Assembly: GCA_030065235.1 (NCBI GenBank)
Contig: JASJDC010000011.1
Location: 1-64,000 of the forward strand
Reading direction: 5' to 3'
DNA length: 64,000 bases
Source: Alphaproteobacteria bacterium
GTDB taxonomy: Bacteria; Pseudomonadota; Alphaproteobacteria; UBA8366; Aestuariispiraceae
Notes under the pieces: model-generated
Seen by the model: only the letters and a program-made list of their open reading frames with translations
The model's database searches: none
What the model was told of the DNA's origin: nothing
Shown here: positions 748-22,816 of the stretch, piece after piece
How the letters are laid out: every line of letters begins with the position of its first letter
Position numbering within the stretch: position 1 is the first letter of the stretch
Position numbers and translations under genes: made by a program

Positions 748-1761
748 ATGACGCATTTGAACCGACGCGGGGCGCTTGGCCTGATGGGCGCGGCCGCCGC
801 CGCGCCGATGCTGGCGACGCCGGCCTTGGCAAGCACCAAACTGAATGTCGGGGCCCTGCGCTTCACCAGCCACGCCGCGAGTTTCGTCGCCTTTGAGCGC
901 GGCTACTTCTCGGACGAAGGCCTGGACGTCAGTTTCAAATTCTTCCAGGCCGCCCAGCCCATGGCGGTCGCCATCGCCTCCGGCGACGCGGATTACGCCG
1001 TGACCGCCGTCTCAGGCGGCCTGATCTCCTTGGCCGAGAAGGGTGCGGCGAAAGTGATCGGTGGCGCGCTGTCGGAAGAAGCCGGCATCGACGGCCAGAA
1101 GATCCTGGCCTCGGACGCCGCCTTTAAGGCGGGCCTGACCACGCCCGCGGCGCTTGAAGGCCGCAGCTTCGCGGTCACCCAGGCCGGGTCGTCCTTCCAT
1201 TATATGGGCAGCAAGATCGCCGCGAAGGAAGGCGTCTCCGTCTCCTTCAAACCGTTGCAGAAGGTCGGCGCGATCATCGGCGCGATGAAATCCGGCCAGG
1301 TCGACGCCTGGTCGATCGTCCCGCATATCGCCAAGCCGCTGGCCGGCAGCGGGGCCGTTCACATCATCGGCGATGTCGCCGACTATATCCCGAATTATCA
1401 GGTCACGACCGTCTTCACCTCGGCGTCGAACGCGGCCAACGAGCGCGGCAAGACAGAGGCCTTCCTGCGCGCCTTCTCAAAAGGCGCCGACGACTTCAAC
1501 GCCGCCTTGGTCGATAAGACGGAAGGCGAGGACGGGGCCGAGGCGATGGTCAAACTGATCCACAAATATGTCTATACCGACCGCCCGTACGACAAAGCGA
1601 AACCCAGCATCGTCAATGGCGCGATGCGGATCAACAAAGGGGCGGCGATGAACGCGGCGTCGATCCGCGACCAGTTGGACTGGTTCAAGTCGGAAGACCT
1701 GGTCAAGCAATCGATCACGTTCGAAACCTTGGTCGACGCGTCCTACGTCGAGACGTTCTAG
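748..1761 (+). CDS. ABC transporter substrate-binding protein, NMT1/SsuA-like
   Basis: This 337-residue periplasmic binding protein belongs to the family that serves sulfonate, taurine, nitrate or pyrimidine-precursor importers. The first 29 residues form an export signal with an RR pair (NRRGALGLMGAAAAAPM) ending in ATPALAS, which could be Tat or Sec. The mature part has the family pattern LRFTSHAASFVAFERGYFSDEGLDV, GDADYAVTAV and KSGQVDAWSIV. GGGAG-type spacing (cagggagacgatt) precedes the ATG. It heads a three-gene operon with an ATPase and a permease. The substrate cannot be read from sequence. Unlike the second importer at 20 kb, no riboswitch-like leader is visible in the 255 bases upstream. 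Confidence 0.85.
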   Translation: MTHLNRRGALGLMGAAAAAPMLATPALASTKLNVGALRFTSHAASFVAFERGYFSDEGLDVSFKFFQAAQPMAVAIASGDADYAVTAVSGGLISLAEKGAAKVIGGALSEEAGIDGQKILASDAAFKAGLTTPAALEGRSFAVTQAGSSFHYMGSKIAAKEGVSVSFKPLQKVGAIIGAMKSGQVDAWSIVPHIAKPLAGSGAVHIIGDVADYIPNYQVTTVFTSASNAANERGKTEAFLRAFSKGADDFNAALVDKTEGEDGAEAMVKLIHKYVYTDRPYDKAKPSIVNGAMRINKGAAMNAASIRDQLDWFKSEDLVKQSITFETLVDASYVETF

Positions 1762-1822
1762 CGGCTGCGCGCGGCGCCGGGGCGATCCGCCTCCAGCCCG
1801 CGCGCAAGGCTCAATATCGGTG

Positions 1823-2590
1823 ATGGACCTTCACCTGGACTCTATCCGCCACGCCTACGGTTCCGTAGCGGTGTTGGAGGATATCTCCCTGACCATTCCG
1901 TCGGGCCGGATCGTCTGCGTCATCGGTCCGTCCGGCTGCGGAAAATCCACACTGCTGCGCCTGATCGGCGGATTGGAGCGGCCGGCGTCGGGCGCGATCT
2001 TGCAAGGCGGCGATCCGCCAGCGGGATGCCTGAACCCACTGACATTCATATTTCAGGACTTCGCCTTGCTGCCCTGGCGCAGCGTCGCCGGCAATGTCAG
2101 CCTGGCGCTTGAGGATCACGGCCTCCCCAACGCCGAGACAGAGCGCATCATCGGTGATGTGCTGGCGCGCACCAAATTGTCCGATTTCCGCGACGCCTTG
2201 CCCAAGCAACTGTCCGGCGGGATGAAGCAGCGCGTTGCCATCGCCCGAGCGCTGGCGGTCAACCCGGCCGTGCTGCTGATGGACGAACCTCTGTCAGCCC
2301 TCGACAGCCAAACTCGCGCCTTGCTGATGGAGGATCTGGTCGGGCTGTGGACTCGGCGGCCCTTCACCGCGGTCTATGTCACCCATAACCTTCAGGAAGC
2401 CGTGCTTCTGGGCCACGAAATCGTCGTTCTGTCCCGTCGACCGGGCCGGGTCCGCGAGATTGTGAAACTTGAAACGCCGCTTCAGGACCGGCGGGTCGGC
2501 GACCCCGATCTGGAACGGGAGCAGCAACGGCTGTGGTCCCTGATGCGCGAGGAGGCGCAGGCGGCGGACCAGGAGTTGATCGATGTCTGA
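1823..2590 (+). CDS. ABC transporter ATP-binding protein, SsuB/TauB-like
   Basis: This is the cytoplasmic ATPase of the importer. It has Walker A GPSGCGKST near residue 37, a Q-loop FQDFALLPW, the signature LSGGMKQRVAIARAL, Walker B VLLMDEPLSALD and the switch histidine in YVTHNLQEA. The length of 255 residues fits the SsuB/TauB group. I chose the ATG at 1823 over a GTG one codon earlier. It ends 8 bases inside the permease gene, so the two are translationally coupled. Confidence 0.9.
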   Translation: MDLHLDSIRHAYGSVAVLEDISLTIPSGRIVCVIGPSGCGKSTLLRLIGGLERPASGAILQGGDPPAGCLNPLTFIFQDFALLPWRSVAGNVSLALEDHGLPNAETERIIGDVLARTKLSDFRDALPKQLSGGMKQRVAIARALAVNPAVLLMDEPLSALDSQTRALLMEDLVGLWTRRPFTAVYVTHNLQEAVLLGHEIVVLSRRPGRVREIVKLETPLQDRRVGDPDLEREQQRLWSLMREEAQAADQELIDV

Positions 2591-3413
2591 AGCGACCGCG
2601 TCCCGGAACGCACCCGACACGGCCGACACGGGCAAACGCGTCGCCTTTCGCGGCGGGGGATTCGCCCCAACACGTAAAAGATGGATCGGCCCCCTGCTGT
2701 TCATCCTGCTGATCTTGCTGATCGAATGGGGAACGAGAACCGGCGTGATCTCCAACCTGACATTGCCCCGTCCCAGCGATGTGCTGGCGACCTTTGTCGA
2801 GCTGTGGGACAGCGGCCTTCTCTGGAAGCATCTGGGGCCGTCCCTAGGCCGGTTGGCGGTCGGCGCGACGCTCGGCGTTGGGGCGGGGGTCGCGATCGGC
2901 GTTCTGATCGGTCTGTTCAGCTATGTCCGGGCCGGCCTGACGCCGCTTGTCGCGGCGATCTTCCCAATCCCGAAGATCGCGTTGTTGCCGCTCTTCGTGA
3001 TCTGGTTCGGCATCGATGAAGGATCGAAATACGCGCTGATCGCGCTGGGCACTTTTACACCGACCGTGGTCGCCGCCTATGGCGCGGTGGACAATGTCGA
3101 TCGCAGCCTGATCCGCATGGGTCAAAGCTTCAACCTATCCTGGTTCTCGATCGTTCGGAAGATTGTGCTGCCCGGCGCCATGCCCGGCATCCTTTCGGGC
3201 CTTCGCGTCTCGCTGGCGATCGGGATCATCTTGTTGGTCGCGGCCGAGATGCTGGGCGCGGAGTATGGCGTCGGCGCCTATATTCTGGAGGCCGGCTCGC
3301 TCTATGATCTGGAGCGCCTGTTCGCAGGCGTAACGATCCTGTCGGTCCTCGGCGTGCTCGTAAACGCGTCGGTCGGCGCGATCGAGCGCCGCCTCTTGAA
3401 CTGGCGAGTCTGA
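2583..3413 (+). CDS. ABC transporter permease, SsuC/TauC-like
   Basis: This 276-residue inner-membrane permease has about six hydrophobic segments, the first around residues 37-50 (IGPLLFILLILLIEWG). The EAA-loop region reads KIALLPLFVIWFGIDEGSKYA, and the following AYGAVDNVDRSLIRMGQSFN matches the BPD_transp_1 fold of SsuC/TauC proteins. It overlaps the upstream ATPase gene by 8 bases and closes the operon. The exported solute specificity is unknown. Confidence 0.88.
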   Translation: MSEATASRNAPDTADTGKRVAFRGGGFAPTRKRWIGPLLFILLILLIEWGTRTGVISNLTLPRPSDVLATFVELWDSGLLWKHLGPSLGRLAVGATLGVGAGVAIGVLIGLFSYVRAGLTPLVAAIFPIPKIALLPLFVIWFGIDEGSKYALIALGTFTPTVVAAYGAVDNVDRSLIRMGQSFNLSWFSIVRKIVLPGAMPGILSGLRVSLAIGIILLVAAEMLGAEYGVGAYILEAGSLYDLERLFAGVTILSVLGVLVNASVGAIERRLLNWRV

Positions 3414-7121: not shown

Positions 7122-9173
7122 TCAGGCGGCGGCCTGGCGGTTCCGGACGCCGTCAAAAACGACTCGACAGATCGTCTGCGCCTCAGCGAAGCCCTTCAGA
7201 CGCATGGCCCCGATTTGCTCAAAACGCAGCGTCGGACCGCACAAATCCCTCACCACGCCCGCCACGCAGATGGCGTTCGGTTCCGTCTTGCTGAGGATGC
7301 GCGCCGCCAAATTGACCGGCGTGCCGAAGATATCGCCGCTCTCGTGAATCGGCTCGCCGGCGCTGATCGCGATGCGGACCTCGAATCCGCGATCGGGCAT
7401 GGCCGCACGGAACCGATCAAAACCCTTTTGCATGGAGATCGAGGCTTTGACGGCCGTCTGTGCGGTCGGAAAGGTCGCCATGATTCCATCGCCCGTGTGT
7501 TTGATCTCACGACCGCCATGCCGCTTGACGCCCTCGCGCACGATCTCGTTATGGGCGCGGATCACGTCCATCATCCAATGATCGCCCTTGGCCTGTTGCA
7601 GTTCGGTGCTGTCGACGATGTCGGTGAAGAGTACGGCGACGAATTTGTCGCTACTTTCCGGCCGCGTAGGCTTGGCGGCGTCGCCATCCGCAGGATCCGC
7701 ATCGGCCATGGCGTCCCCCTCCGCGCCGCTGGCCGCGCCAAGCGCCTCAGCTTGCGCCGGGTCGAACGTCGGGGCCTCAGGGGGGCGCTTTTCCGGCAGG
7801 CGCGGGTTTCGCCAAACAGCAATCGCCTCATCCAGTCCCAGAGGCGCGTTCTCGTCCGCCAAACGGCGATAGGCGGCGGAGCGGCCGCTCTGATACATCG
7901 CCAGATATCGGTCGTCGATCAGGTATTCTTCGATATTGTGCACGAAGCCTTTGGCGATCGATTCCGGATTGCCGAGCCGCACCGCCAGCACCGTCACCGC
8001 GTCGCGGGCGGTATCCGACGCGACCTTGAACTTCCGCGCGAACGCCTCGCCGGCCCCTGTGAAGAACAGCGTCAGACCGAACCGCGTATAGTCATCGAAG
8101 GCCTCTCCGACGATCCGGCGCGCCTCAAGCTCGACCCTTTCCAGCTCCAAGGTCATCCGCCCCAGGTCCCCGCCGCTCTCGCCATGGATGGGTTGGGTTT
8201 CAACTTCATTGGCGATCTTGGCCTCGGCGGCGGCGAGTTCGTCGGAACCGTCCTGCGCCAAGTCGGGATAAGGCCCCGCAACCGCCTCTTGGGGCGCTTC
8301 ATGGCCCCGCCGGGTGGCCGTCGCGCTCGGTTCAGCGTCCAGCGCCTCCAGGCGGACTGTCAAATCATCGAAATCCTCAACACTCTCAAACGCCGCCGCC
8401 TCATCGACCGCATCGGCATGCAGATCGGCGCCGTCGAACGCGGCGGCGGGACCTGGCGAGACAGCGGCGGAGCCCGCTTGGTCATACTCAGTGTTGGAGG
8501 CGACTTTTACGAAGCGCCGAAATGAAGGAATGAAAGCGCCGGCGAACGCCAGCACGAAGGCGCCGATGACAGCCGCCTGAGCAATTTCCTTCTCGATCCC
8601 GACGCCCAGCGAGACCAGCTGCTGCAGAGCCAAGTAGACGATCCCCGCAGCCGAGGACGCGATAATCAGGCCGAATATAGCGAACGCCAGGAATTTCAGA
8701 ACCAGATCGCCTGTCCCCGGCCTACGGGGCGCTGACGCCTCACGCCGACGATCGCGTCTTGCGGCCGCGGCCTGTTCCGCCGCCTGAGTCTGCGCCGCCG
8801 CCTCACGAAGCTGCGTCGCCAAAAAAGCGCGCTCCTGCGCTTCGGCGGACTTGGCGGCGTTGGCCGCGACCGAGCCTTCCGGCGCCGGCATGACGGCGCG
8901 CGGCGCGCCGCCCGCGGCGGCGTCTTCGGCGATCTGAGAGACCAGCGGACGCGCTTTTAATGTCGGCGTGTGGTAGATGATCGTTTCATCGGAAACGCTG
9001 TGCGCCACGTCGAACGAATCGCGCACGACGCACGCAGCTTCGAAGCCGGTGGTGTCGAGATATTTCGCATCATTGATTGCTTCGTCGCCCTCGGCGGGCC
9101 CATAGCGCGCGTGCAAGCGCCAGCGCCCGTCCTGGAGGTAATAGACTTCGAAAGACAACTGACGCCTGGTCAC
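7122..9173 (-). CDS. Membrane-anchored class III adenylate/guanylate cyclase
   Basis: This is a 683-residue protein that probably makes cAMP or cGMP. Residues 1-75 form a small sensor-like domain (LSFEVYYLQDGRWRLHARYG). Residues 110-150 are Ala/Arg/Gln-rich, suggesting coiled coil. Two hydrophobic segments lie at about 157-184 and 199-217. A long acidic middle region follows, and the catalytic domain begins at about 510. The metal-binding aspartates are present in LFTDIVDST (D518) and HTGDGIMATF (D562), with transition-state residues in GTPVNLAARIL. The start is GTG. Nothing next to it is obviously linked, so the signal sensed is unknown. N-terminal homologues are common in Rhodospirillales-type genomes, by my recollection. 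Confidence 0.85.
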   Translation of the reverse strand: MTRRQLSFEVYYLQDGRWRLHARYGPAEGDEAINDAKYLDTTGFEAACVVRDSFDVAHSVSDETIIYHTPTLKARPLVSQIAEDAAAGGAPRAVMPAPEGSVAANAAKSAEAQERAFLATQLREAAAQTQAAEQAAAARRDRRREASAPRRPGTGDLVLKFLAFAIFGLIIASSAAGIVYLALQQLVSLGVGIEKEIAQAAVIGAFVLAFAGAFIPSFRRFVKVASNTEYDQAGSAAVSPGPAAAFDGADLHADAVDEAAAFESVEDFDDLTVRLEALDAEPSATATRRGHEAPQEAVAGPYPDLAQDGSDELAAAEAKIANEVETQPIHGESGGDLGRMTLELERVELEARRIVGEAFDDYTRFGLTLFFTGAGEAFARKFKVASDTARDAVTVLAVRLGNPESIAKGFVHNIEEYLIDDRYLAMYQSGRSAAYRRLADENAPLGLDEAIAVWRNPRLPEKRPPEAPTFDPAQAEALGAASGAEGDAMADADPADGDAAKPTRPESSDKFVAVLFTDIVDSTELQQAKGDHWMMDVIRAHNEIVREGVKRHGGREIKHTGDGIMATFPTAQTAVKASISMQKGFDRFRAAMPDRGFEVRIAISAGEPIHESGDIFGTPVNLAARILSKTEPNAICVAGVVRDLCGPTLRFEQIGAMRLKGFAEAQTICRVVFDGVRNRQAAA

Positions 9174-19597: not shown

Positions 19598-19869
19598 GAT
19601 TCTTTCAGCTCGGCGCGAGTGCGCGTGACAATGGTTACAATGAAATGTGCGGCGCAACATATCCACCGGACCGGACTGAATCAACGCGCGATTCTGGCGA
19701 CGGTTTGCTTTGAACGAGGCGCGCCGCGCGTCGTGCTGGAAGGCGCTGGAACGCGCTGGAGACCAGCCCCTATCACCCGGCGACCAACGTCCCGATCTCA
19801 GGTTCTCAGGGCGTGTCCTGGAAATTCTCTTGCTAAAACAACGCAGTAAAAGTTTTTCGGTTTTCTCTG

Positions 19870-19898
19870 TTGACGCCGAAAGCGTTTCGGAACTATCA
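19870..19898 (+). promoter_or_regulatory. Sigma70-type promoter with internal palindrome, upstream of SAM-II
   Basis: TTGACG at 19870-19875 and CTATCA at 19893-19898 are separated by 17 bases, giving an expected start near 19905, immediately before the riboswitch. The spacer contains a perfect inverted repeat, CCGAAA-GCG-TTTCGG (19876-19890), placed where a repressor would block RNA polymerase. The promoter call is by inspection only. Confidence 0.55.
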
Positions 19899-19907
19899 CA
19901 CTCTCAC

Positions 19908-19968
19908 AGCGCCGATTTGAGGCTCAGATTGCTGGGGCGCTATATAAATACTTGCTAAAGAGAGCGGG
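19908..19968 (+). ncRNA. SAM-II (metA-type) riboswitch
   Basis: P1 is AGCGCC (19908-19913) with GGCGCT (19936-19941). Loop 1 has the conserved GATTTGA after P1 and GATTGC before the P1 return strand. The J/3' segment has ATAAAT and the hallmark GCTAAA-GAG (19954-19962). The pseudoknot GCTC (19922-19925) pairs with GAGC (19962-19965). The order matches the SAM-II consensus as I know it from alphaproteobacterial metA/metX leaders. It sits in the 5' leader of an ABC importer operon and overlaps an antiterminator. SAM binding is expected to switch the operon off. Confidence 0.85.
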
Positions 19969-20005
19969 TCGGGAACCCGCTGCTTATCGAAGCCGCGGGT
20001 TTTTT
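19963..20005 (+). terminator. Intrinsic terminator with competing antiterminator, linked to SAM-II
   Basis: The terminator pairs AACCCGC (19974-19980) with GCGGGTT (19995-20001), extended inside by GCTT/AAGC around an ATCG loop, and ends in a six-T tract. A competing stem AGCGGGT (19963-19969) with ACCCGCT (19975-19981) uses the same 5' strand. The first strand of that antiterminator also shares bases 19963-19965 with the SAM-II pseudoknot. The inferred logic is that with SAM bound the antiterminator cannot form and transcription stops. Confidence 0.8.
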
Positions 20006-20051
20006 CTTTGCCCCGCCGGAAAGCAGTCCTCCCCATCCGGTTCCGATTGAG

Positions 20052-20087
20052 CCTCGTCACAAGAGGCGCAATGGGCGCCTGATGAGG
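20052..20087 (+). promoter_or_regulatory. Leader hairpin that masks the ribosome-binding site
   Basis: CCTCGTCA (20052-20059) pairs with TGATGAGG (20080-20087) with one G-U pair, enclosing an inner stem GGCGC/GCGCC with loop AATGG. The 3' strand includes part of the GAGGAG ribosome-binding site for the ATG at 20097. An alternative stem, GCCTC (20051-20055) with GAGGC (20063-20067), would free it. It does not resemble a SAM-V or SAM/SAH element. Confidence 0.4.
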
Positions 20088-20096
20088 AGTAAGACC

Positions 20097-21122
20097 ATGA
20101 CTGCACTATCCCCTTCCCGGTCCAAAAACCCGGCTATCTCGAAACGGTTTTTCCTGGTCGCGACCGCCGCGCTGGCGGCGTCTCTGGGTCTCGGCTTCGC
20201 TGGTCAGTCGAAAGCGGACGACCTGCCCGACAGCATCGGCATCGACTACGCCTACTACAATCCGGTCGCCCTGCTCTTGAAGGAGAAGGGCTGGTTCGAG
20301 GACGAGTTCAACAAGGACGGAATCAAGGTCCGCTGGGTCTTGTCGCTCGGCTCCAACAAGGCGCTCGAATTCCTGCGCGGCAGATCGCTCGATTTCGGGT
20401 CCACAGCCGGCGCTTCGGCGGTGATCGGGCGCGCCGCGGGCTTGCCGATCAAAGCCGTCTACGCCTATTCCAAGCCGGAATGGACCGCCCTGGTGACCCG
20501 TCCCGAGACCGGCATCGCCAGCATCGCTGACTTGCGCGGCAAGCGCGTTGCCGTCACGCGCGGCACCGATCCGCATATCTTCCTGCTGCGCGCGCTCGAT
20601 TCCGTCGGGCTGACGGAGAAGGACATCAAGCCGGTCCTGCTGCAGCATCCGGACGGCTACACCGCCCTGACCAAAGGCCAGGTCGACGCCTGGGCCGGGC
20701 TGGACCCGCATATGGCCAAGGGCGAGCTGCGCAGCGACGCGACGCTGTTCTACCGCAACGCCGATTTGAACAGCTACGGCATTCTGAACGTGCGGGAGGA
20801 ATTCGCCGCCCAGCATCCTGACCTCGTGAAACGGGTCTTGGCGGTTTATGAACGCGGCCGGAAATACGCCATCGAGAACCCGGACGAATTGACCGCCGCG
20901 CTCGTCCGCGCCGCCCGGATCGACGAAGACGTCGCCCAGAAGCAGCTCACCGAACGGACCGACCTGAGCAACCCGCTGGTCGACGCCGACAAACGCGCGA
21001 CGCTGCTGGCTTCGGGCGAAATCCTGCAGAAGATCGAGGTCATCAAGCCCGATGTGGATGTCGCCTCGGTCGTCGATGATCTGATCGACAGCAGCTACCT
21101 CGCGTCGCTGACCGGCAACTGA
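20097..21122 (+). CDS. ABC transporter substrate-binding protein, SsuA-like (SAM-II controlled)
   Basis: This 341-residue periplasmic binding protein is close to aliphatic sulfonate-binding SsuA. The signal peptide is KRFFLVATAALAASLGLGFAGQSKADD. The mature part begins IGIDYAYYNPVALLLKEKGWFEDEF and has WVLSLGSNKALEFLRGRSLDFG, LRGKRVAVTRGTDPHIFLLRALDSVGL and KGQVDAWAGLDPHMA, typical of SsuA. The ATG at 20097 is favoured by GAGGAG eight bases upstream, over an in-frame ATG at 20082. It follows a SAM-II riboswitch and terminator and heads an operon with permease and ATPase. The SAM link supports organosulfur uptake for methionine or cysteine supply; the exact ligand is inferred only. Confidence 0.88.
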   Translation: MTALSPSRSKNPAISKRFFLVATAALAASLGLGFAGQSKADDLPDSIGIDYAYYNPVALLLKEKGWFEDEFNKDGIKVRWVLSLGSNKALEFLRGRSLDFGSTAGASAVIGRAAGLPIKAVYAYSKPEWTALVTRPETGIASIADLRGKRVAVTRGTDPHIFLLRALDSVGLTEKDIKPVLLQHPDGYTALTKGQVDAWAGLDPHMAKGELRSDATLFYRNADLNSYGILNVREEFAAQHPDLVKRVLAVYERGRKYAIENPDELTAALVRAARIDEDVAQKQLTERTDLSNPLVDADKRATLLASGEILQKIEVIKPDVDVASVVDDLIDSSYLASLTGN

Positions 21123-21175
21123 TCCGAGCCCAGGGACCCGACAGGCGACCCGACACGCCGTTAAAGGAGAGACGC

Positions 21176-22066
21176 ATGTCCAGCATCGATATAGCGGAAG
21201 CCGAAACGACCGCCGGGTCCCGCCGCTCAATCGCCAAGGGGGCCGCGCCGGAACAGGCGCGGTCCATGGCGGCGGCCGCGGTGCGGCGCGCCCTCACGCG
21301 GGCCATCCTGCCGCTCTTGGTTCCGTTCGGCCTGTTGGCGGTCTGGTTCCTGTTCAGTCGATGGGGCGTTTTCGATCCGCAATTGATGCCCGCGCCCGCC
21401 GAAGTCGCCGACGAACTGGCCTATCTGATCGACGACGGCACGCTGCTGACCCATATCCTGGTGACGGTCGAGCGCCTGATCTGGGGTTTCGCCTGGGGAG
21501 CCCTCGCCGCGACCGCGTTGGGCGCCGCGACCGGATACTCCCGACTGGCCCGCACCCTGCTCGATCCAACCATCCAGGCGTTGAAGGCGGTGCCCTCGCT
21601 CGCCTGGGTGCCGCTCTTCATCCTTTGGTTCGGCATTTTTGAGACATCGAAGATCACCTTGATCGCCATCGGCGCCTTCTTCCCGATCTATCTGAACCTG
21701 ATGACCGGCATTCAGGATGTCGACCGAAAGCTGGTCGAGGTCGGTCGGATCATGGGCCTGAACCAATTCCAACTGGTCTGGCGGGTGCTGATCCCCGCAA
21801 CCCTGCCCGCCTATCTGACCGGCCTGCGCGGCGGCCTGGCCCTGGCCTGGATGTTTGTCGTCGCCGCCGAATTGATGGGCGCCAGCGAAGGCCTCGGCTT
21901 CCTGATGATCGACGGCCAGATGACAGGCCGGCCAGCCATCATCATCGGCGCGCTGATCCTGTTCGCCATCGCCGGCAAACTCAGCGACGCCGCGCTGGGT
22001 CGCTTCAATGCACGGCTTCTGCGCTGGCAAGACTCCTTCGGCGTGCAAGAACACTCGAAATCTTAG
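21176..22066 (+). CDS. ABC transporter permease, SsuC-like
   Basis: This 296-residue inner-membrane permease has an N-terminal cytoplasmic tail of about 45 residues, then LPLLVPFGLLAVWFLFSRWGVF as the first membrane span and about five more. The EAA region reads VPLFILWFGIFETSKITLIAIGAFFPIYLN and then GIQDVDRKLVEVGRIMGLN, the SsuC pattern. A strong AAAGGAG lies 7 bases before the ATG. It is the second gene of the SAM-II-led operon. Confidence 0.9.
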   Translation: MSSIDIAEAETTAGSRRSIAKGAAPEQARSMAAAAVRRALTRAILPLLVPFGLLAVWFLFSRWGVFDPQLMPAPAEVADELAYLIDDGTLLTHILVTVERLIWGFAWGALAATALGAATGYSRLARTLLDPTIQALKAVPSLAWVPLFILWFGIFETSKITLIAIGAFFPIYLNLMTGIQDVDRKLVEVGRIMGLNQFQLVWRVLIPATLPAYLTGLRGGLALAWMFVVAAELMGASEGLGFLMIDGQMTGRPAIIIGALILFAIAGKLSDAALGRFNARLLRWQDSFGVQEHSKS

Positions 22067-22078
22067 GGGGTCAAAACC

Positions 22079-22816
22079 ATGCTCGATATCGACACCGTTT
22101 CAAAAAGCTTCCCCGATGACGCGGGCGCCGACCGGCCGGCGCTGGAGCCGGTCAATCTGACCGTCGGCGAGCACAAGATCGTCTCGCTGCTTGGCACCTC
22201 GGGCTGCGGGAAATCGACCCTGTTGCGCATCGTCGCCGGACTGGAGGCGCCGACGACCGGACGCGTCAGCATCGACGGCGCCCATGTCGACGGCCCGTCC
22301 CGCGAGATCGCCATGGTCTTCCAGGAGCCGCGTCTGATGCCCTGGTTGACGGTCGCGGAGAATGTCCGCTTCGGAATCCTTGACCTGCCCAAGGCCGAGC
22401 AGAAAGACCGGATCGCCGATGTGCTGGACAAAGTCGGCCTGGCGGACTTCCAAGACGCCTTCCCCAAGCAGCTTTCCGGCGGCATGGCGCAGCGCGTCGG
22501 GATCGCCCGCGCCCTGGCGCGCCAGCCTAAAATCCTACTCTTGGACGAACCGTTCAGCGCGCTCGATTCCTTCACGCGCCAGAAACTGCAGGACCATCTG
22601 CTCTCGCTTTGGGAGGCGGACCGGTTCACCATGGTCTTCGTCACCCATGACATCGAAGAAGCCGTCGTTCTGAGCGACCGGATCGTGGTGTTGCGTGGCC
22701 AGCCCGGCCGGGTCGAGAAGGTGCTGGATCTCGACTGGCCGCGTCCGCGCGCCCGCACCGCCGCCCGGGTTCAGGAGCTCAAAGCGGAGATTGTCGGACT
22801 GCTGGATTTGCGCTGA
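22079..22816 (+). CDS. ABC transporter ATP-binding protein, SsuB-like
   Basis: This 245-residue importer ATPase has Walker A GTSGCGKSTLLR, a Q-loop FQEPRLMPWLTVAENV, the signature LSGGMAQRVGIARALA, Walker B ILLLDEPFSALD and the H-switch FVTHDIEEAV. The MPWLTV and EPFSALDSF wording is characteristic of SsuB/TauB. It is the last gene of the SAM-II operon and lies 12 bases after the permease. Only one ATPase gene is present, so it would act as a homodimer. Confidence 0.9.
   Translation: MLDIDTVSKSFPDDAGADRPALEPVNLTVGEHKIVSLLGTSGCGKSTLLRIVAGLEAPTTGRVSIDGAHVDGPSREIAMVFQEPRLMPWLTVAENVRFGILDLPKAEQKDRIADVLDKVGLADFQDAFPKQLSGGMAQRVGIARALARQPKILLLDEPFSALDSFTRQKLQDHLLSLWEADRFTMVFVTHDIEEAVVLSDRIVVLRGQPGRVEKVLDLDWPRPRARTAARVQELKAEIVGLLDLR

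Follow-up and report, generated by a model that had tools for sequence, protein, structure and literature searches.

An SsuA-family ABC importer operon in Alphaproteobacteria is preceded by a SAM-II aptamer that overlaps an antiterminator and terminator

SAM-II riboswitches that carry a terminator are the common form of this class in the alpha- and beta-Proteobacteria (PMC2258182). The SAM-II element of S. meliloti metZ has a predicted terminator, and a short RNA from it rises in vivo at high SAM (PMC9373788). A transcription start near stem P1 was described for the class by Corbino 2005 (PMC1273637). The SAM_alpha targets given by Leyn 2014 (PMC4239095) are metY, metA, metX, hom, metC and metW, and in that account the element is confined to Rhizobiales and Rhodobacterales, with none in the survey's nine Rhodospirillales genomes. 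Among the Bacillota, 'SAM SAM' makes up 16-19% of the cases with contiguous riboswitches at ssuA/B/C (PMC12452182), and we infer that 'SAM' in that table denotes SAM-I. In Pelagibacter, osmC is under SAM-V, and its transcript rises more than any other when sulfur is limiting (PMC5069961).

The window analysed here is a 64,000 nt stretch of an alphaproteobacterial genome. An earlier note on it described a SAM-II riboswitch fused to a terminator upstream of an SsuABC-type importer, and held that SAM-II elements act mostly by occluding the ribosome-binding site (RBS). That generalisation is not supported, as terminators are the usual alphaproteobacterial arrangement (PMC2258182), and the aptamer-terminator 'fusion' is not new because terminator-type SAM-II is common (PMC2258182) and has in vivo support at S. 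meliloti metZ (PMC9373788). The window leader has the same P1/pseudoknot architecture, core letters, downstream terminator and predicted OFF logic as these known elements (PMC1273637, PMC2258182, PMC9373788), but its target is an ABC importer and its aptamer scores below the Rfam cut-off. The ssuABC-type switches of the Bacillota likewise place a SAM sensor before COG0715, COG0600 and COG1116 genes, but they belong to another phylum, are tandem, and precede a transporter that is named there for hydroxymethylpyrimidine (PMC12452182). The Pelagibacter SAM-II/SAM-V regulon also consists of alphaproteobacterial SAM riboswitches, with osmC among the targets, but the authors report that sulfur limitation activated no further importers of organosulfur compounds (PMC5069961). 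No description of SAM-II upstream of an ssu-type importer was found in the literature searched, which comprised openly licensed papers. The locus contributes a new target, together with a divergent subgroup, to a riboswitch class already known; the switch itself is ordinary.

The importer operon comprises three genes on the + strand (20097-22816), with hemB next downstream. They predict an SsuA-family periplasmic substrate-binding protein (SBP; 20097-21122, PF09084), an ABC permease that is SsuC/TauC-like at family level (21176-22066, PF00528) and an ABC ATPase that is SsuB/TauB-like at family level (22079-22816, PF00005), in agreement with the earlier note, which had the target as an importer and not a met biosynthesis gene. 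All three are like the SsuABC aliphatic sulfonate importer at family level, but only the SBP passes a curated SsuA-family cut-off (TIGR01728, 235 bits, cut-off 163.5). The SBP (105.7 bits), permease (179.2 bits) and ATPase (201.1 bits) do not reach the cut-offs of the SsuA (NF008588, 299), SsuC (NF008470, 347) and SsuB (NF008420, 395) models, respectively; the best NCBIfam matches of the permease are all below cut-offs, as are those of the ATPase among the 25 of 189 matches listed. Among solved structures, the best sequence relative of the SBP is 2x26, an aliphatic sulphonates-binding protein (8.4e-22). A similarity to the 'Sao' transporter, from the Sec-assisted organometallic operon (PMC13188914), was rejected, the scores being below cut-offs. 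A second ABC operon lies at 748-3413, where an NMT1-family binding protein gene is followed by ATPase and permease genes with products 47% and 32% identical to their importer counterparts; neither the Rfam scan nor the clade model described below found a SAM-II match there.

The leader upstream of the importer (19870-20097, + strand) contains a putative promoter, with a -35 element TTGACG (19870-19875), an 18-nt spacer and a -10-like TATCAC (19894-19899). The SAM-II aptamer core (19905-19970) includes the P1 stem (19908-19913/19936-19941) with loop L1, GATTTGAG...CAGATTGC, the 5′ strand of the pseudoknot, GCTC (19922-19925), the conserved core CTAAA (19955-19959) and the 3′ strand of the pseudoknot, GAGC (19962-19965). 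This last strand is also within the 5′ arm of an antiterminator hairpin (19960-19969 with 19975-19985, -12.7 kcal/mol), which in turn overlaps an intrinsic terminator (19973-19985 with 19990-20002, -17.2 kcal/mol) ending in a run of six U (20000-20005). Strands are therefore shared among pseudoknot, antiterminator and terminator in a mutually exclusive manner, as had been noticed earlier. A Shine-Dalgarno sequence, GAGGAG (20084-20089), is found ∼114 nt 3′ of the aptamer, close to the 110 bases first estimated, and is followed by the ATG at 20097. An equally stable antiterminator was seen in 4/200 shuffles of the sequence and an equally stable terminator in 0/200, with 0/30 in a separate shuffle test. 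Folding the whole 151-nt leader by itself showed no unusual stability (z -0.41), and simple terminator and promoter scans of the window did not report these elements, so the case for them is mainly comparative. The presence of a SAM-II aptamer, antiterminator and terminator upstream of the importer is nonetheless confirmed by the comparisons that follow.

The earlier note had proposed a scan with the Rfam SAM_alpha model and named a sub-threshold score as refuting a SAM-II element. RF00521 aligns over its full length with the window leader at 30.1 bits (E 6e-5, 501 bases searched). The gathering cut-off set for the model is higher, at 36 bits; it is the curators' threshold and not a biological feature, and SAM-II is absent from a gathering-threshold Rfam scan of the window for this reason. 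The SAM-V model has 0 matches up to E 10 in 19700-20200. Among the 15 other leader-positive loci of the class sample (RF00521 scores cover the leaders of L057-L081), 7 exceed 36 bits, 6 score 27.7-35.2 and 2 are unlisted at E<=0.1, and 0/10 leader-negative loci of the same sample are listed. The subgroup of importer leaders thus straddles the Rfam threshold, and because 7/15 orthologous leaders pass it, the 30.1 bits were not counted as refuting the assignment, which is kept. A clade covariance model trained on 28 homologous leaders other than that of the window, with sequence and P1 as its only input, recovers the window copy at 71.7 bits (E 1.3e-19 over 64 kb; next best 11.4 bits). In the whole window genome just two more places rise above noise with this model, at 44.4 and 41.8 bits, both at metY, a gene whose product is over the O-acetylhomoserine sulfhydrylase subfamily cut-off. 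The SAM-II core letters GAUUUG, UUGC and GCUAAA are present in the window, as seen from the Rfam consensus alignment and the conserved columns. As judged from the sequences, this comparative evidence appears to outweigh the sub-threshold Rfam score.

Pairing was examined across 29 leaders, 28 homologues and the window. P1 is paired in 99.4% of cells (6/6 pairs in the window) and the pseudoknot in 88.7% (4/4 pairs in the window), with 3 of the 4 pseudoknot pairs altered on both sides. Together they give 95.2% of cells paired, compared with 26-67% in slid controls. The real values for cells paired, double-change cells, further pair types and covariation score were each reached by 0/500 shuffles; a fifth measure, which counts the pairs that show a double change, was reached in 104/500. 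When the pseudoknot is counted by distinct strand combinations (n=16), 54/64 positions pair, and 38/48 pair at the three variable positions; shuffles average 24.3 there, and 2/10000 of them are as high. The pseudoknot is only 4 bp long, and three of the 29 leaders (L076, L080 and L118) retain 2/4 pairs. The columns invariant in the alignment include the SAM-II core letters, which the window keeps by definition, being within the alignment. The SAM-II aptamer reported in the earlier note is thus upheld by the 71.7 bits of the clade model and by covariation of the pseudoknot.

A U-run is present in 26/29 leaders. Each of these 26 has a hairpin ending at the U-run with a free energy of -12 kcal/mol or lower, as well as an alternative hairpin that claims at least 5 bases of the terminator 5′ arm and uses at least 2 of the 4 pseudoknot bases. 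The first two of these features, a stable hairpin and a claimed 5′ arm, occur together in 57/780 shuffled spacers. Leaders L070, L074 and L077 are missing the U-run and may work in another way. Each leader was treated separately in this analysis because a consensus fold of the complete alignment missed the terminator pairs, probably owing to misalignment of that part. A TTGAC lies 43-46 nt upstream of the L1 motif TTTGAG in 28/29 leaders, and this spacing would place the transcription start near P1, as is described for the class.

The reading we favour, at a probability of about 0.87, is that a SAM-II riboswitch with a transcription-terminating platform turns off the importer operon when SAM is plentiful, and that the importer most likely carries an organosulfur compound. 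RNA polymerase would start near P1. With SAM bound, L1 (19922-19925) would pair with 19962-19965, removing the antiterminator 5′ arm and allowing the terminator (19973-20002) to form, so that transcription would stop before the importer genes. When SAM is scarce, the antiterminator (19960-19985) would form first and occupy the terminator 5′ arm, and the importer would be transcribed. This predicted order, from SAM to pseudoknot, loss of the antiterminator and termination, is drawn from the overlaps of the elements and the established OFF logic of the class. As the antiterminator (-12.7 kcal/mol) is the less stable of the two hairpins (terminator, -17.2 kcal/mol), the ON state must rely on folding that precedes synthesis of the terminator 3′ arm, and read-through would hinge on co-transcriptional timing.

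The same aptamer could instead act mainly on translation, the Shine-Dalgarno of the read-through mRNA being hidden in a downstream hairpin and the terminator being incidental. Single-sequence folds of the post-terminator leader leave the window Shine-Dalgarno largely paired, as in several relatives when judged by eye, three leaders are without a U-run, and in S. meliloti a SAM-II element is described as acting at a distance on metA translation (PMC9373788). However, the distance of ∼114 nt from aptamer to Shine-Dalgarno is bridged by no strand in common, RNAalifold on 15 leaders gave no consensus structure between terminator and RBS, and terminator and antiterminator occur together in 26/26 U-run leaders, which makes translational control improbable. 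A second structured element in that interval was dropped as a candidate on the same RNAalifold result. The string GAGCCTC in this part of the leader (window 20010-20099) recurs in 14/28 leaders covering it, no start codon having been found for the 29th. It is more improbable still, and very much so, that the element is a degenerate SAM-II relic that has lost its SAM response beside an ordinary attenuator. The score under the Rfam cut-off would fit such a relic, as would the unique A before UUGC in the window L1 where the other 28 leaders have C, but the invariant columns are kept, core letters included (by definition), the clade model scores the copy highly and all four pseudoknot pairs form in the window.

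A different question is whether the switch works as described with an alkanesulfonate as cargo, the importer being a true SsuABC. The earlier note had linked SAM level with sulfonate-type uptake, a part of its account that is now doubtful, even though the SBP is over the TIGR01728 cut-off and has 2x26 as its best solved relative. The monooxygenase SsuD (profile TIGR03565), the one desulfonating enzyme searched for, has 0 matches at E<=1e-20 in the window genome, which is 98% complete. It is over cut-off in 2/28 riboswitch-bearing genomes versus 5/11 riboswitch-free ones (Fisher p 0.012, not corrected for relatedness), and SsuD-like matches at E<=1e-20 number 6/28 and 6/11, respectively; the six among riboswitch-bearing genomes can be taken in favour of a sulfonate. 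Near the operon, within the stretches examined, SsuD was found in 0/28 riboswitch-bearing and 2/11 riboswitch-free cases. The latter two, L155 (G306) and L157 (G210), belong to one family and have SsuD just upstream of the SBP gene with no OsmC found nearby, which is a sulfonate-type arrangement in homologous operons. Given the scarcity of SsuD alongside the riboswitch and the scores of SBP, permease and ATPase below the SsuA, SsuC and SsuB models, a sulfonate cargo is unlikely, and the importer probably does not bring in an alkanesulfonate destined for SsuD. The substrate we favour as the most likely is an organosulfur compound that would feed methionine/SAM.

An OsmC-like gene (PF02566) is found beside the importer in 17/28 riboswitch-bearing loci, in 13 just after the ATPase gene on the same strand, in 3 upstream and in 1 divergent upstream, and in 8/11 riboswitch-free loci, 7 after the ATPase and 1 at a locus with no detected ATPase; some of the stretches counted stop before the position after the ATPase. 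As OsmC is as common without the switch as with it, OsmC goes with the importer and not with the riboswitch as such, and an OsmC neighbour alone does not tie the cargo to SAM. Four cysteines are invariant in 26/26 rows of the OsmC-like protein alignment (two rows are from one genome). No OsmC was found within the 64 kb of the window. A tentative proposal, which we regard as possible though doubtful, is that the SAM-II leader, the SsuA-like importer and the four-cysteine OsmC-like protein make up a SAM-controlled route of organosulfur acquisition for methionine synthesis, widespread in Alphaproteobacteria and distinct from SsuD desulfonation, with OsmC performing the processing and the window version having lost or moved OsmC. 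In one genus (three genomes; L059, L061 and L062), the OsmC-like gene (L061 586-1239) has its own SAM-II at 34.4-35.8 bits, just under the cut-off, and lies immediately upstream of the importer operon, which carries a SAM-II as well; in L061 the OsmC aptamer is followed by a terminator-like hairpin, judged by eye. The importer as a replacement for MetNIQ found no support: MetQ (PF03180, E<=1e-5) has no match in the window genome, and was detected in 8/28 riboswitch-bearing and 4/11 riboswitch-free genomes (Fisher p 0.71).

The distribution of leader and importer was followed through homologues of the SBP. In genome contigs, 18 loci were found, made up of 12 clear relatives, for which upstream regions were read, and 6 weak ones at 22-30% identity. 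Whole-genome searches at E<=1e-70 gave 26/385 class genomes, and 10/61, 8/43 and 3/4 in three orders. Within the window's order, its own genome was alone among 43 at E<=1e-60. The operon is thus patchily distributed there, which may reflect loss from the other genomes or acquisition by that of the window. Leader presence was judged by motif and by eye, for L057-L081 also by Rfam. The leader occurs in 28/39 distinct genomes with a close SBP homologue, comprising 16/26 of the class sample together with 8/8 and 4/5 new ones from two orders. Five of the 12 genome-contig relatives have the leader, four of them repeating counted genomes and the fifth, Caenispirillum bisanense, bringing the set to 29 leaders; it is absent upstream of the other seven (L040, L041, L042, L046, L047, L048 and L049). 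In a maximum-likelihood tree of 47 SBPs (29 with and 18 without leader), the riboswitch label changes 7 times, compared with 14.6 in shuffles, of which 0/500 were as low, and well-supported branches force at least 4 changes. These few changes fit an old association of SAM-II and importer with several losses; gains or transfer are also possible.

Importer-linked copies were compared with 59 SAM_alpha loci, namely the metY locus of the window genome and two sets of 29. At 56/59 of them there is a protein whose best match is a MetZ-, MetY- or MetA-like representative (the MetZ and MetY representatives are over a family cut-off, that of MetA just below one), and the importer is the best match at 0/59, from which the importer-linked copies form a distinct, lower-scoring set. 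Aquibaculum and Caenispirillum, named carriers of the leader, are Rhodospirillales, and SAM-II targets are extended beyond the cited survey (PMC4239095), as far as its available text goes, from biosynthesis to uptake and to this order. Riboswitch control is in itself evidence of physiological role. A conserved SAM-II switch before genes of the 'aliphatic sulfonate transporter' family suggests that some members serve methionine/SAM supply and not the SsuD pathway, a reading that could change the annotation of many genomes.

Two further loci were noted. Near the importer of L040, an AT-rich relative that has no SAM-II leader, lies a gene (8134-8796, - strand) for a protein with a methionine synthase catalytic domain. 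The metY leader of the window genome (contig C1:285585-285832, - strand) carries two SAM-II-like aptamers in tandem, scoring 39.0 and 27.4 bits. Downstream of the first are a terminator-like hairpin and a U-run, and the end of the second is 55 nt upstream of the likely metY start codon (ATG), an arrangement that resembles described mixed tandem SAM-II leaders (PMC9481103).
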